A stretch of DNA of 32,235 nt, taken from positions 1-32,235 of the IMG/VR virus record IMGVR_UViG_3300030098_004666. The stretch is one strand, 5' to 3'. The position numbers and the translations under genes are program-made. A model generated the notes under the pieces. That model was not told the origin of the DNA. It saw only the letters and a program-made list of their open reading frames with translations, and searched no databases. The DNA comes from a virus. Shown in pieces: positions 6,821-25,776 of this stretch (position 1 is the stretch's first letter; each line of letters begins with the position of its first letter).

Positions 6821-7064
6821 TGCTGCTCCTTATTAGTTTGATTATTTCAAAGTCGAAAACCCACACATTCGGCTTTCCACTCTTTTTATATGGTACACCA
6901 TTTTGGCGTAGTTTGTCAATATCTTTTTTATAAATTATTGTGGCGTCCCAGCCTTCAGCACCCCATCCATCACCAAAGTTGGCGTGGCGCTCATCCAAGC
7001 GAACGCGGACGTTTGGGCCTGCGAAGCTCTTTACTAGGACGATGTCGCCTGTCTTATATTCCAT
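6789..7064 (-). CDS. Hypothetical small protein, possibly translated from a leaderless mRNA
   Basis: The 91-aa protein begins MEYKTGDIVLVKSFAGPNVRVRL, which looks like an SH3 or KOW-like small beta barrel (a strand, GD turn, strand), followed by WDATIIYKKDIDKLR, a strand-rich centre and a basic C-terminus (AKPRRRQES). Its function is unknown. No Shine-Dalgarno sequence precedes the ATG. A strong promoter ends with its -10 hexamer at 7071, which places the expected transcription start on the A of this ATG. It is the first gene of the nucleotide and DNA-modification operon reading through dut and dam. Confidence 0.75.
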   Translation of the reverse strand: MEYKTGDIVLVKSFAGPNVRVRLDERHANFGDGWGAEGWDATIIYKKDIDKLRQNGVPYKKSGKPNVWVFDFEIIKLIRSSSAKPRRRQES

Positions 7065-14475: not shown

Positions 14476-14757
14476 TCAAGAAGAAACGGCGCCTAGGACG
14501 TAGTTCTCAAGAATAACAGTGTGAGTCTCAGACCCCACCTTGATTTCCTCAAGGAAATTAGACAAAACAACAATCTGAGTGTCTGGTGGTACTCTGTCGA
14601 TAAACGCACAATTTGGTGATGCACCAAGGACAGTTACTACCTCGTGAGTCTTCTGACTACTAGTATATTCTTCTGGCAGTAGGATGTCAGTTTCCTGCTG
14701 CTTTCTTGGTTGGCGTTGAACCAAAATGTGTCGGTTAAAAGGCACGAATGTGCTCAT
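14476..14757 (-). CDS. GroES/gp31-like co-chaperonin
   Basis: The 93-aa protein follows the GroES pattern: an N-terminal strand (FNRHILVQR, 7-15), a mobile-loop region at about 18-38 containing a hydrophobic tripeptide (ILLPEEY), then VVTVLG (40-45), a central PDTQIVVLSNF (58-68), and a C-terminal VILENYVLGAV (81-91). The size is close to the 97 aa of E. coli GroES. T4 encodes gp31, a co-chaperonin that replaces GroES to fold the phage capsid protein with GroEL. The sequence is divergent, so a similar role is inferred. The gene is overlapped by the upstream one (ATGA). Confidence 0.7.
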   Translation of the reverse strand: MSTFVPFNRHILVQRQPRKQQETDILLPEEYTSSQKTHEVVTVLGASPNCAFIDRVPPDTQIVVLSNFLEEIKVGSETHTVILENYVLGAVSS

Positions 14758-14999
14758 AGCTTCTCCTGCTCGTTAAGTGAGTTATTAATAACTCGTTTTT
14801 GTAGTTCATATTGGCTAGCATTTAATAATGCTGTTTCTCTCATATTACATCGCTGACACCTCAAGCTAACAAACACATTTTGTCCCTGAGTTGCCCTGAC
14901 TTCACCACTAGCGACCCAGTGGTGAAGTCTGTTAGTGCCAGCACAAGTGCCTTTAGCTAATCGAGCTTCCAGCAAATGATTTAGTTTGGTATATCGCAC
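14754..14999 (-). CDS. Small CxxC protein
   Basis: The 81-aa protein starts at GTG 14999 with AGGAG nine bases upstream. The centre carries LRCQRCNMRE, a CxxC pair; two further cysteine or histidine ligands could be C19 and H26-H27. This suggests a small zinc-binding protein, perhaps nucleic-acid binding. Its stop overlaps the co-chaperonin ATG by four bases. No family is recognised. Confidence 0.65.
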   Translation of the reverse strand: MRYTKLNHLLEARLAKGTCAGTNRLHHWVASGEVRATQGQNVFVSLRCQRCNMRETALLNASQYELQKRVINNSLNEQEKL

Positions 15000-20986: not shown

Positions 20987-21409
20987 TTACAGTTTGATAC
21001 AACCAATGTGTTCGTCATCGATGCTATAGTATACCTTTTTTACACCCACATGTGCAAGCACTTGTTGGCACATTTCGCAAGGTTTTGACATTTTAAGCTC
21101 TCCTGTTTTACCGATCCTGGCAACATACATCGTTGCACCTGTCGTTTTTTCGCGGGCCATTCCGAGGACAGCTCCCACTTCTGCGTGGTGGGTTGCATGG
21201 CCACAATCTTTGTTGCGGAACTTATTCGCCCAGTTGATATGGTTACTCTTGTTGAAAGCGGAACTTATAATTGATCCACCGCGAACAAGAAGGGCACCGT
21301 GTCGGTAGTTGGGAAATTCCGAGTCTTCTGCTGTGCGTGCTGAGGCCTCGATAAACCTCTTGTGTCGGCCGCGCAGTTCATGTATGGTGCCGTCGTCAGT
21401 TGAATACAT
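20987..21409 (-). CDS. dCMP/cytidine deaminase-like protein
   Basis: The 140-aa protein carries the zinc deaminase signature H75-A-E77 and P110-C111-E-M-C114, with a proton-relay glutamate E77. The flanking FRNKDCGHATHHAEVGA and the small size resemble phage deoxycytidylate deaminases (dCMP to dUMP). With dut and thyX, it would raise dTMP supply. A more general nucleoside or tRNA deaminase cannot be ruled out. The gene has its own promoter, and its AAGGAGG ribosome site forms half of a perfect 13-base inverted repeat. Confidence 0.88.
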   Translation of the reverse strand: MYSTDDGTIHELRGRHKRFIEASARTAEDSEFPNYRHGALLVRGGSIISSAFNKSNHINWANKFRNKDCGHATHHAEVGAVLGMAREKTTGATMYVARIGKTGELKMSKPCEMCQQVLAHVGVKKVYYSIDDEHIGCIKL

Positions 21410-21455
21410 TTGAGCCTCCTTAACTATTAATAATATAACAGATAAGGAGGCTCAA
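21410..21455 (-). promoter_or_regulatory. 13-base perfect inverted repeat that can sequester the deaminase ribosome site
   Basis: TTGAGCCTCCTTA (21455-21443) and TAAGGAGGCTCAA (21422-21410) are exact complements separated by a 20-base loop. The downstream arm contains the whole Shine-Dalgarno and ends one base before the ATG. The loop holds the -10 hexamer. RNA read from the lipoprotein genes would fold this hairpin and hide the ribosome site; RNA starting at about 21425 would lack the upstream arm. Confidence 0.85.
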
Positions 21456-21460
21456 GTCAA
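21432..21460 (-). promoter_or_regulatory. Promoter of the deaminase-RNR operon
   Basis: TTGACT (21460-21455), a 17-base spacer and TATATT (21437-21432), with TG before the -10. It is almost identical to three other promoters in the window. The expected start is near 21425, giving a leader of about 16 bases. Confidence 0.85.
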
Positions 21461-21469
21461 GAGGAAATT

Positions 21470-21982
21470 TTAAAGATATTGAATGACAGTCTGATAGTTT
21501 CCGTCCCAATCGTACGCCGTGGTATGAATCTCGTAAGCGGTGCCAGAGTAACAATTAAGTGGTGGCGACTCTTTTGTAGAGTACATCCAAAGACCATCAT
21601 TTGGCACAGTAGAAAAACCATACATTTCTGCACCTGGGGCTTCGACTGGGTATTGAAGCGTGATTCCATCGTATAGTGCGTAGTGTGCGCTGCTGTAGGG
21701 GCCGTAGATGTCTACCCACACAGACTCAATCTCAGATGGGCCGTATGGGTGATCAACAACTGCGTCAAAGTACCAGCCCCAGCCACCCCAGTCGTGGTAG
21801 TACTCCCAACACTCCGCGTATGCGTCAACAATAATTGGACCGTAGCCGCTATGGTGTTGATCGTGCACGGTTGGACCGTAGCCGTCGTGTTGGTAACTGA
21901 CACCACCAGACAAGGTACCAGGGGTTGCAGGGACACAGCCTGTGGCTGCCAAAAGCAGGATAGAGATTAGCTTCTTAAACAT
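21470..21982 (-). CDS. Phage-encoded lipoprotein, acidic and aromatic
   Basis: The 170-aa protein has a lipoprotein signal: KK at 3-4, a hydrophobic run ISILLLAAT, and the lipobox cysteine C16 (LAATGC). The +2 residue is Val, not Asp, consistent with sorting to the outer membrane. The mature part is rich in Tyr, Trp, Gly and Asp (YHDWGGWGWYFDAVV), with few Lys. It should be anchored in the inner face of the outer membrane, or exposed, and could act in superinfection exclusion or host surface change. An excellent AGGAGG precedes its ATG, nine bases after the stop of the other lipoprotein. The specific function is not known. Confidence 0.8.
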   Translation of the reverse strand: MFKKLISILLLAATGCVPATPGTLSGGVSYQHDGYGPTVHDQHHSGYGPIIVDAYAECWEYYHDWGGWGWYFDAVVDHPYGPSEIESVWVDIYGPYSSAHYALYDGITLQYPVEAPGAEMYGFSTVPNDGLWMYSTKESPPLNCYSGTAYEIHTTAYDWDGNYQTVIQYL

Positions 21983-21991
21983 TGTAGCCTC

Positions 21992-22444
21992 CTAGCGACG
22001 ACGAGTTGAACGGCCGTTCTTGTTGTTGGTCTGGTTTGTGCCCCGGCTGTGTGAGTTCCTAGTTGAACTGCGACTTTGGCTAGTCCGAACCGAGGAGCGG
22101 CGCTGAGAGTTGCTAGGCCTAACCACATGCCTGTGATTGGTTGACCGGCTACTAGAGCGATATGCTGGTGCGCGATGGCCACTGGAGGAGCGGTGTACAA
22201 TCACCGAGTGGCGATGCGAAGGGTGTGCATGGTAAACCGAGCCGCGTGGAGGTGGACCGGCACGGCGGACCCAAGTCGTGTTAATATACACATAGTGCCA
22301 CTGGATAGCCACGGAACTGGGCGTAATCACCACTGCTGGTTGAGCGGGGGGTGCATATACGATTGGCGGCGTATAATGAGCATGGGCTGAAAAACAGCCC
22401 GTACTCATAAGGGCGACAAAGGCTAGCAAGATGCTTGATTTCAT
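21992..22444 (-). CDS. Phage-encoded lipoprotein with Arg/Ser/His-rich tail
   Basis: The 150-aa protein starts with a lipoprotein signal peptide (SSILLAFVALMSTGC, lipobox cysteine C17, +2 Phe). A proline-rich part follows (YTPPIVYAPPAQPA), then a short hydrophobic strand region and about 85 residues that are extremely rich in Arg, Ser, His and Asn, ending RSTRRR. This basic low-complexity tail is opposite in charge to the acidic neighbour, so the two products may interact or bind LPS or peptidoglycan. It is the first gene of a two-gene operon with a strong promoter and AAGGAG eight bases before the ATG. The function is inferred. Confidence 0.78.
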   Translation of the reverse strand: MKSSILLAFVALMSTGCFSAHAHYTPPIVYAPPAQPAVVITPSSVAIQWHYVYINTTWVRRAGPPPRGSVYHAHPSHRHSVIVHRSSSGHRAPAYRSSSRSTNHRHVVRPSNSQRRSSVRTSQSRSSTRNSHSRGTNQTNNKNGRSTRRR

Positions 22445-22458
22445 AATGTTTTCTCCTT

Positions 22459-22476
22459 ATGTTATTAATATAACAT
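22459..22476 (-). repeat. Dyad over the -10 of the lipoprotein promoter
   Basis: ATGTTAT and ATAACAT are seven-base inverted repeats with a four-base centre that span the -10 hexamer and the expected transcription start. It could be an operator or a small hairpin in the 5' end. Confidence 0.5.
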
Positions 22477-22495
22477 CCATTAGATATATAGTCAA
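22467..22495 (-). promoter_or_regulatory. Promoter of the lipoprotein operon
   Basis: TTGACT (22495-22490), a 17-base spacer and extended TGTTATATT with -10 at 22472-22467. The expected start, about 22460, gives a 16-base leader containing AAGGAG. This makes the lipoproteins an independently expressed, probably early, unit. Confidence 0.88.
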
Positions 22496-23742: not shown

Positions 23743-24853
23743 CCTTTTCTCCATAAAAATCTTCGGCTGAACCTTCTCGGTTGTTGAATTTTTGGACAAC
23801 TTCAATGTCCATGATTTCTTCGACTCGGGCGAGGAACTTCTCGTTCTCTAGCTTAGAAATCCACTTTGATGCTTGGAATCGCTCTTCTGTGCCATCGGCA
23901 TATACGAGAGTAAACCATGCGCCAGCTTGCTTGATGTGGTCCGAGCCCTTAATAGCCTCAAACCATGATTCTCGGTCCTGCACTCCAACTGCATGTGTGC
24001 CCCATAGAATCTTAAAGTTGCACTGTCGGCCCTGGGTTCCAAAGCGCGACTTCTCCAACTTTACCTTTACCTCAGAGCCGATGCGGAAGCCCTTCTCATC
24101 GGTAATGTAGCTAGCCTTCGCCTTGCGGCCTGTAAGCCAGATTCGCAGCGAATAGGCATAGATCATTGCCTTGCCGCCCGGAGTCATATAGGGCGTTACA
24201 AGTGCCTCTGACGGGGAGCGGGTGATATTTGACTTAAGCTGATTCAGTACCAGAAAGGTGCTCTGCGAATTGGCGATTGGGACCGTAAGTTTACTCATTC
24301 CCTTTGCAAGGATACGAGCCTTCACGGCCATAGATGACTGTGGGTTGAAGTCACCTTCTACATCTGATATAGAGGGCGTAAGAGCCAGCGAGTCCCAGAT
24401 AAACAGCATCCGATTCTCATTGTTTGAGAGAAGATCTTCGATGGTCTCCAACACAAACTCAACTGACGTCGCCTGTACATATAGTAGTGTGTCCACATCA
24501 CAGCCAGCGCGTTCAAGAAATGCCGGGTCAATAGCAGACTCAGAATCGAAGTAAATGACGTCGATACCCATCTGCTGTGCATTTGCTGCAACTTGGGCCG
24601 CAAGAAACGACTTACCAGACGCTTCCAGGCCCGCAATCTCTGTGACCTTGCCCACTGGAATGCCTGCTCGGGAACCCTTGCAGATAATCGAATCTAACCA
24701 CCGAGAGCCGGTAGGAATCCAATCCTTTACCGCTGTGGGGTTCTCGCCAGACAGGTCGTGGGCAACTTCCATACCAGCTTTCTTGTTAATGATGGCGCGC
24801 ATGTCAGCAATAGACATCTTACCCGCACCAGCAGACTTTTTCCTTCTTGCCAT
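23732..24853 (-). CDS. recA: RecA/UvsX-type recombinase
   Basis: The 373-aa protein starts at ATG 24853 with AGGAG six bases upstream. Walker A is GLEASGKS at 76-83, followed by the catalytic glutamate strand YFDSESAID and Walker B MLFIWDSLAL. The L2 region and the TPGGKAMIYAYSLRIWL segment are typical of RecA/UvsX. It forms filaments on single-stranded DNA for strand exchange and recombination-dependent replication, with the SSB encoded just upstream. The C-terminal tail is acidic. Whether it is closer to RecA or T4 UvsX cannot be settled by eye. Confidence 0.93.
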   Translation of the reverse strand: MARRKKSAGAGKMSIADMRAIINKKAGMEVAHDLSGENPTAVKDWIPTGSRWLDSIICKGSRAGIPVGKVTEIAGLEASGKSFLAAQVAANAQQMGIDVIYFDSESAIDPAFLERAGCDVDTLLYVQATSVEFVLETIEDLLSNNENRMLFIWDSLALTPSISDVEGDFNPQSSMAVKARILAKGMSKLTVPIANSQSTFLVLNQLKSNITRSPSEALVTPYMTPGGKAMIYAYSLRIWLTGRKAKASYITDEKGFRIGSEVKVKLEKSRFGTQGRQCNFKILWGTHAVGVQDRESWFEAIKGSDHIKQAGAWFTLVYADGTEERFQASKWISKLENEKFLARVEEIMDIEVVQKFNNREGSAEDFYGEKDEQ

Positions 24854-25747: not shown

Positions 25748-25776
25748 AATATAACACCCTTCTTCACAGAAGTCAA
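25748..25776 (-). promoter_or_regulatory. Promoter of the SSB-recA operon
   Basis: TTGACT (25776-25771), a 17-base spacer and extended TGTTATATT with -10 at 25753-25748. The -35 overlaps the stop codon of the preceding small gene. Confidence 0.85.

Follow-up and report, generated by a model that had tools for sequence, protein, structure and literature searches.

A candidate insulator hairpin enclosing the deaminase promoter at a recA-deaminase junction in uncultured phages

The junction upstream of the deaminase gene

The stretch of viral DNA analysed here (IMG/VR record IMGVR_UViG_3300030098_004666, 32,235 nucleotides; hereafter the window) carries on its minus strand a gp32-like ssb gene and recA, small lipoprotein-like genes, and then a dCMP/cytidine deaminase gene followed by uvsE, thyX and replication genes. 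The lipoprotein genes (21470-22444, minus strand) have no Pfam match, and the one nearest to the deaminase has no PHROG match either. Small secreted-protein or lipoprotein genes between recA and the deaminase are fast-changing in many relatives.

Read along the minus strand, the junction consists of TTGACT, TGAGCCTCCTTATCTGT, TATATT, ATTAATAGT, TAAGGAGGCTCAA and the deaminase ATG (21409), in that order, with TTGACT ten bases past the end (21470) of the last lipoprotein-like gene (Table 1). The arrangement TTGACT-N17-TATATT, at 21460-21432, corresponds to a sigma70-type promoter of the extended -10 kind. The promoter motif TTGACT-N14-TGNTATATT has exactly three matches in the window (starting at 21460, 22495 and 25776) and one more with a single mismatch (7099), and all four lie on the coding strand immediately 5' of a gene. 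Across nine genomes, extended -10 sites of the TTGACT/TATATT type number 2-17 per genome, compared with 0 in four shuffles of each. Because the motif matches sit just 5' of genes and such sites are absent from the shuffles, the deaminase promoter is a credible one on its sequence. The Shine-Dalgarno (SD) sequence that follows it would form a duplex of -10.0 kcal/mol with the anti-SD.

Table 1. Features of the deaminase junction and of the upstream promoters in the window
Feature	Position	Strand	Basis
-35 element TTGACT of the deaminase promoter	21455..21460	-	sequence
Extended -10, TG-T-TATATT (hexamer 21437-21432), in hairpin loop and inner stem	21432..21440	-	
5' arm TTGAGCCTCCTTA, the anti-SD arm, within the promoter spacer	21443..21455	-	
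Inner stem (6 pairs, 21441-21436 with 21429-21424) and loop of 6 nt (21435-21430)	21424..21441	-	RNA fold
Predicted local transcription start, 6-8 nt past the -10; leader of ~16 nt	21424..21426	-	inferred from -10 position
3' arm TAAGGAGGCTCAA	21410..21422	-	
Shine-Dalgarno AAGGAGG, entirely in the 3' arm	21415..21421	-	sequence
dCMP/cytidine deaminase, first gene past the element	20987..21409	-	PF00383, phrog_174
Small lipoprotein-like gene upstream, co-directional; stop codon 21472-21470	21470..21982	-	
Same-class promoter ahead of the lipoprotein genes; source of read-through RNA	22467..22495	-	
Same-class promoter ahead of gp32-like ssb and recA; second read-through source	25748..25776	-	

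The 29-base promoter site has a single occurrence in the window, and no other copy was found in the window's own record besides the self-complement. A repeated mobile or promoter unit is ruled out by this single occurrence. Two of the other promoters have features of their own. The site at 7099-7071 (minus strand) reads TTGACA-N14-TG-T-TATATT, and its -10 ends 6 nt before an ATG at 7064; mRNA from this promoter is predicted to be leaderless or near-leaderless. At the lipoprotein promoter (22495-22445, minus strand), a short repeat, TGTTAT/ATAACA, spans the -10, with the SD outside the repeat; it is the layout of the deaminase element in miniature.

A predicted hairpin and its conservation in relatives

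A sequence-only reading of this DNA had described a perfect 13-base inverted repeat flanking the -10 element, so that the promoter is nested in a potential hairpin. This repeat is present as described, with a gap of 20 nt between its arms, TTGAGCCTCCTTA and TAAGGAGGCTCAA. The arms and the inner stem together provide 19 pairs (13 and 6), and with the inner pairs included the repeat amounts to 20 nt at 90%. The 3' arm abuts the deaminase ATG, with 0 nt between them. Among inverted repeats with a gap of at most 40 nt, it is the longest perfect one in the window, compared with a longest repeat of 9-12 bases in 15 dinucleotide shuffles of the window, one of which lacked any repeat of at least 9. 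These shuffles, together with the conservation described below, rule out a chance repeat. Another perfect inverted repeat, of 12 bp (GACTTCACCACT/AGTGGTGAAGTC, gap of 8 nt), occurs at 14898-14929 inside a small ORF (14754-14999, minus strand).

The same reading held that RNA arriving from upstream would hide the SD and that RNA started locally would release it, and the predicted folding of the two transcripts bears this out. The read-through RNA is predicted to fold at -32.1 kcal/mol (z -6.7; equalled by 0 of 200 shuffles), with the SD, which lies wholly in the downstream arm, fully paired, whereas RNA from ~21425 has no special structure (z +0.8). The predicted accessibility of the SD, expressed as unpaired probability, is 0.00 in the read-through RNA and 0.78 in the local RNA. 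The predicted start at ~21425 falls in the loop, and RNA beginning there would lack the 5' strand of the structure. The stop codon of the upstream lipoprotein-like gene lies 14 nt ahead of the 5' arm, so a ribosome terminating at that codon should not melt the stem. No terminator-like site was found on the minus strand between the ssb promoter (25776) and the element, and read-through is therefore expected.

Deaminase relatives are encoded at 80 viral loci with 44-100% identity, the relatives being uncultured viral contigs from metagenomes. No DNA match was found among 50,697 phage records, and in a search of cultured phages the deaminase was less than 60% identical to every phage match. A nested hairpin, called at p <= 0.01 against shuffles of the spacer and leader, is present in 32 of 45 distinct homologous promoters, and the best SD lies within the 3' arm in 31 of these 32. 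Among the remaining nested relatives that carry the SD in this arm, its predicted accessibility is 0.00-0.14 in read-through RNA compared with 0.16-0.82 in local RNA (one local value missing).

The sequences of the stems differ widely, from CCTCC/GGAGG in the window to GCCCCA/TGGGGC, CCCCTATTG/CAATAGGGG and CAATCACCTATTG/CAATAGGTGATTG in relatives. The sequence-only reading would have been refuted by arms that differ without compensation; in dozens of relatives the arms do differ, and the changes are compensatory. In an alignment of 27 distinct elements over a 12-pair helix, 86.4% of cells are paired, compared with 38-57% when the arms are slid by 1-3 columns. The same alignment contains 80 double-change cells (shuffled mean 24) and has a covariation score of 0.689 (shuffled 0.253), a value reached by 0 of 500 shuffles. 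Non-Watson-Crick exchanges were counted with both transition mismatches weighted equally in stem finding. On the mRNA-sense strand of 18 clade representatives there are 32 G.U and 3 A.C exchanges (p 2e-7), and a larger set of 28 spacer clusters contains 38 and 4, respectively. These compensatory substitutions, and exchanges that are G.U rather than A.C, indicate that selection acts on the sense RNA. Loop length ranges from 3 to 20 nt across relatives. The junction thus contains a covariation-supported RNA element unmatched in Rfam, where no curated family scores above its gathering cut-off (best tp2, 29.8 bits against a cut-off of 50, E 0.048). In three relatives (L059, L061 and L062), the 5' arm reaches into the -35 itself (TTGCAATCACCTATTG) and the SD is AGGTGA; promoter and stem consequently constrain each other in these sequences.

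In the other 13 promoters, no strong nested hairpin is present. In one branch (L068, L072, L074, L076 and L080-L082) there is no hairpin and no SD, and the ATG lies ~6 nt past the -10, so that local RNA would have little or no leader. It is a conjecture that read-through RNA of this branch is also poorly translated, by another route. The hairpin is weak or lost in L010, L056, L060, L064, L065 and L073. Outside these 13, a further clade (L016, L026-L028 and L030), and likewise L017-L019, has in the same position a strong hairpin that resembles a terminator but contains no recognisable promoter.

The element is also rare within each genome. All TTGAC promoter-like sites were scored in the window and eight related records (30-185 kb), and the top nested-hairpin score belongs to the deaminase promoter in seven of the nine genomes (G000, G001, G002, G003, G004, G006 and G008). 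As G008 is a near-identical copy of the window region, the independent cases number six. Runner-up sites are mostly far behind, the closest being at 171529 in G003 (28 against 37.5) and at 24338 in G004 (21.5 against 25.5). The former, in a relative of 184 kb, is a second promoter-like site on the minus strand, flanked by a strong repeat, CCACCGG/CCGGTGG. Of the other two genomes, G005 belongs to the branch with an ATG ~6 nt past the -10, and G007 to a branch with a hairpin and no recognisable promoter. The neighbourhood is kept: recA lies upstream, often followed by one or two small secreted-protein genes, and then the deaminase. Downstream of the deaminase is a set of genes that varies by genome and includes uvsE, a 5'-3' exonuclease, a DnaB-like helicase and ribonucleotide reductase.

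The U-tract of relatives and its loss in the clade of the window

Two further scans enlarged the set to 120 distinct upstream regions, of which 63 were scored as nested automatically; two of these 63 (L196 and L206) were set aside as spurious. In the 8 nt past the last G-C pair, the elements contain a mean of 5.4 T, and 25 of 28 clusters have four or more. The corresponding mean past the SD core of 442 other genes, taken from four of these genomes, is 2.4 T (p 6e-16). This U-tract lies between the stem and the start codon, where it doubles as the SD-to-start spacer, and the promoter of the following gene sits in the loop. The element therefore resembles a textbook intrinsic terminator in most relatives, and the hairpin may act there as one, a point that the sequence-only reading missed.

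The window element does not classify as an intrinsic terminator: the stem is followed by AAATGTAT, with no U-tract. The clade of the window (three members, 99% support) has no U-tract and a longer stem, and it is nested among relatives with a U-tract in a tree built on 130 columns only, in which many forks are unresolved. From this placement, the clade appears to have lost the U-tract and kept the longer stem, which would leave SD occlusion alone. Because the longer stem is kept without the U-tract, the clade suggests selection for SD occlusion itself, at least in this lineage. A terminator would insulate the whole operon in relatives that have one, but probably not in the window.

Insulation and alternative readings

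The hairpin is likely to be a cis-acting insulator that separates the ssb-recA(-lipoprotein) transcript from the deaminase-uvsE-thyX-replication genes. A polymerase arriving from upstream would make RNA in which the promoter spacer, as the 5' arm, pairs with the leader, as the 3' arm, and buries the deaminase SD. Starting at the nested promoter, in the loop, would produce RNA without the 5' arm, in which the SD is open. In relatives with a U-tract, the same hairpin would terminate the incoming polymerase, and a polymerase started locally would be blind to the terminator because its RNA cannot form the hairpin. With the U-tract gone in the clade of the window, translational occlusion would be the main remaining action. 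We infer that the purpose of the arrangement is to make deaminase output independent of ssb and recA transcription. The sequence-only reading extended the lock to the deaminase, uvsE, thyX and replication operon as a whole. For the deaminase this appears justified; for the rest it does not, as uvsE is preceded by a GGAG of its own, 14 nt past the deaminase stop. SD occlusion alone would thus silence only the deaminase, unless the downstream genes are coupled, and only this gene seems clearly locked.

The hairpin could instead be nothing other than the intrinsic terminator of the upstream gene, whose overlap with the following promoter and SD would reflect an economical genome, with SD occlusion as a by-product of a GGAGG-rich 3' arm. 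The frequency of the U-tract past the stem, far above that of other genes, speaks for such a terminator, as does the frequent presence of recA or a small secreted-protein gene directly ahead of the element. This reading is nevertheless unlikely. The clade of the window retains, without a U-tract, a perfect 13-bp stem whose total length is among the longest of the family, and the SD is found in the 3' arm almost throughout the nested promoters, though terminators need no SD. A role mainly in RNA stability or processing, with the hairpin shielding a 3' end or being cut by RNase III to release the 3' arm, would suit a stable stem right past the upstream stop codon, but it would not account for an SD located in the 3' arm, for a promoter placed in the loop or for the U-tract, and we consider it very unlikely. 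Least probable is a DNA operator, in which the palindrome would bind a regulator of the deaminase promoter. The arms are symmetric about the -10 and there is one strong site per genome, as an operator might require; however, pairing is kept and arm sequence is not, the length of the loop is variable, and the exchanges are G.U and not A.C, where a palindrome would predict equal numbers. The operator is rejected on the exchange bias and the variable arms.

A timing switch of the T4 type would make upstream RNA early and silent at the deaminase, with the local promoter active at another stage. Its anatomy is that of T4 genes e, soc, 49 and I-TevI (PMC3014915), and the sequence-only reading had invoked e and soc as a parallel. 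The parallel holds for the paired SD and the placement of the promoter. An early/late switch is not supported, since the local promoter and those at 22495 and 25776 carry the same sequence, TTGACT-N14-TGNTATATT. Moreover, in five genomes the T4 late box TATAAATA is not consistently more frequent than in shuffles. A timing switch is thus rather improbable, and constant insulation would be the simpler reading and the better fit, because the upstream promoters are of the same sequence class as the local one.

Silencing of read-through RNA by a nested promoter is known from a few T4 genes and from insertion sequences. In T4 genes e, soc, 49 and I-TevI, a late promoter lies inside an SD-occluding structure, at its 5' strand; transcripts begun there do not contain this strand and are translated, with an effect of ~100-fold for gene e (PMC3014915). 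The element described here is like these genes in that the read-through RNA is predicted to fold and hide the SD, and the local RNA to lack the 5' strand. Unlike in T4, the local promoter is not of a later class; it is an extended -10 promoter of the host sigma70 type, as are the upstream ones. In further contrast to T4, the gene is a dCMP deaminase, a U-tract is present in most relatives, and the stems vary widely with compensation.

The element is also like those of IS10, IS50 and IS200 tnpA, in which the leader hides the SD in RNA entering from outside. In IS10 and IS50 the native transposase transcript starts between the arms, and in IS200 a terminator-like upstream hairpin is also present. 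The SD-occluding stem-loop is described for IS200 tnpA (PMC12594629). In insertion sequences this arrangement limits transposase production when the element has inserted next to a foreign promoter, whereas here it stands at a fixed phage operon junction. Unlike in these elements, a single hairpin holds the promoter, the SD and, in relatives, the terminator together. In filamentous phages, a short stretch between genes VIII and III is common to a terminator and to the promoter that drives the following gene; we know of no SD in the 3' arm combined with a -10 in the loop at that site. No described case of a promoter inside a terminator loop was found in the literature searched, which covered few subscription papers.

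With confidence no more than middling, the analysis can be extended to an element dedicated to this junction and mostly present once per genome across a large group of uncultured phages, with one hairpin that would be terminator for arriving polymerase, SD lock and promoter cradle. Lineages would slide between termination plus occlusion, occlusion alone (as in the window), and an ATG ~6 nt past the -10 without an SD, all separating expression of the deaminase and replication genes from the recA transcript. What is new here is that silencing of read-through RNA appears to be conserved by structure, not sequence, across a large uncultured virus group, with an ordinary sigma70-type promoter and a hairpin that is usually merged with a terminator. 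Because read-through RNA may be untranslated, RNA coverage alone would be insufficient to establish gene expression in such phages. The element offers a natural design of ~50 bases for insulating adjacent transcription units, and relatives with and without the U-tract form a series for separating termination from translational occlusion experimentally.
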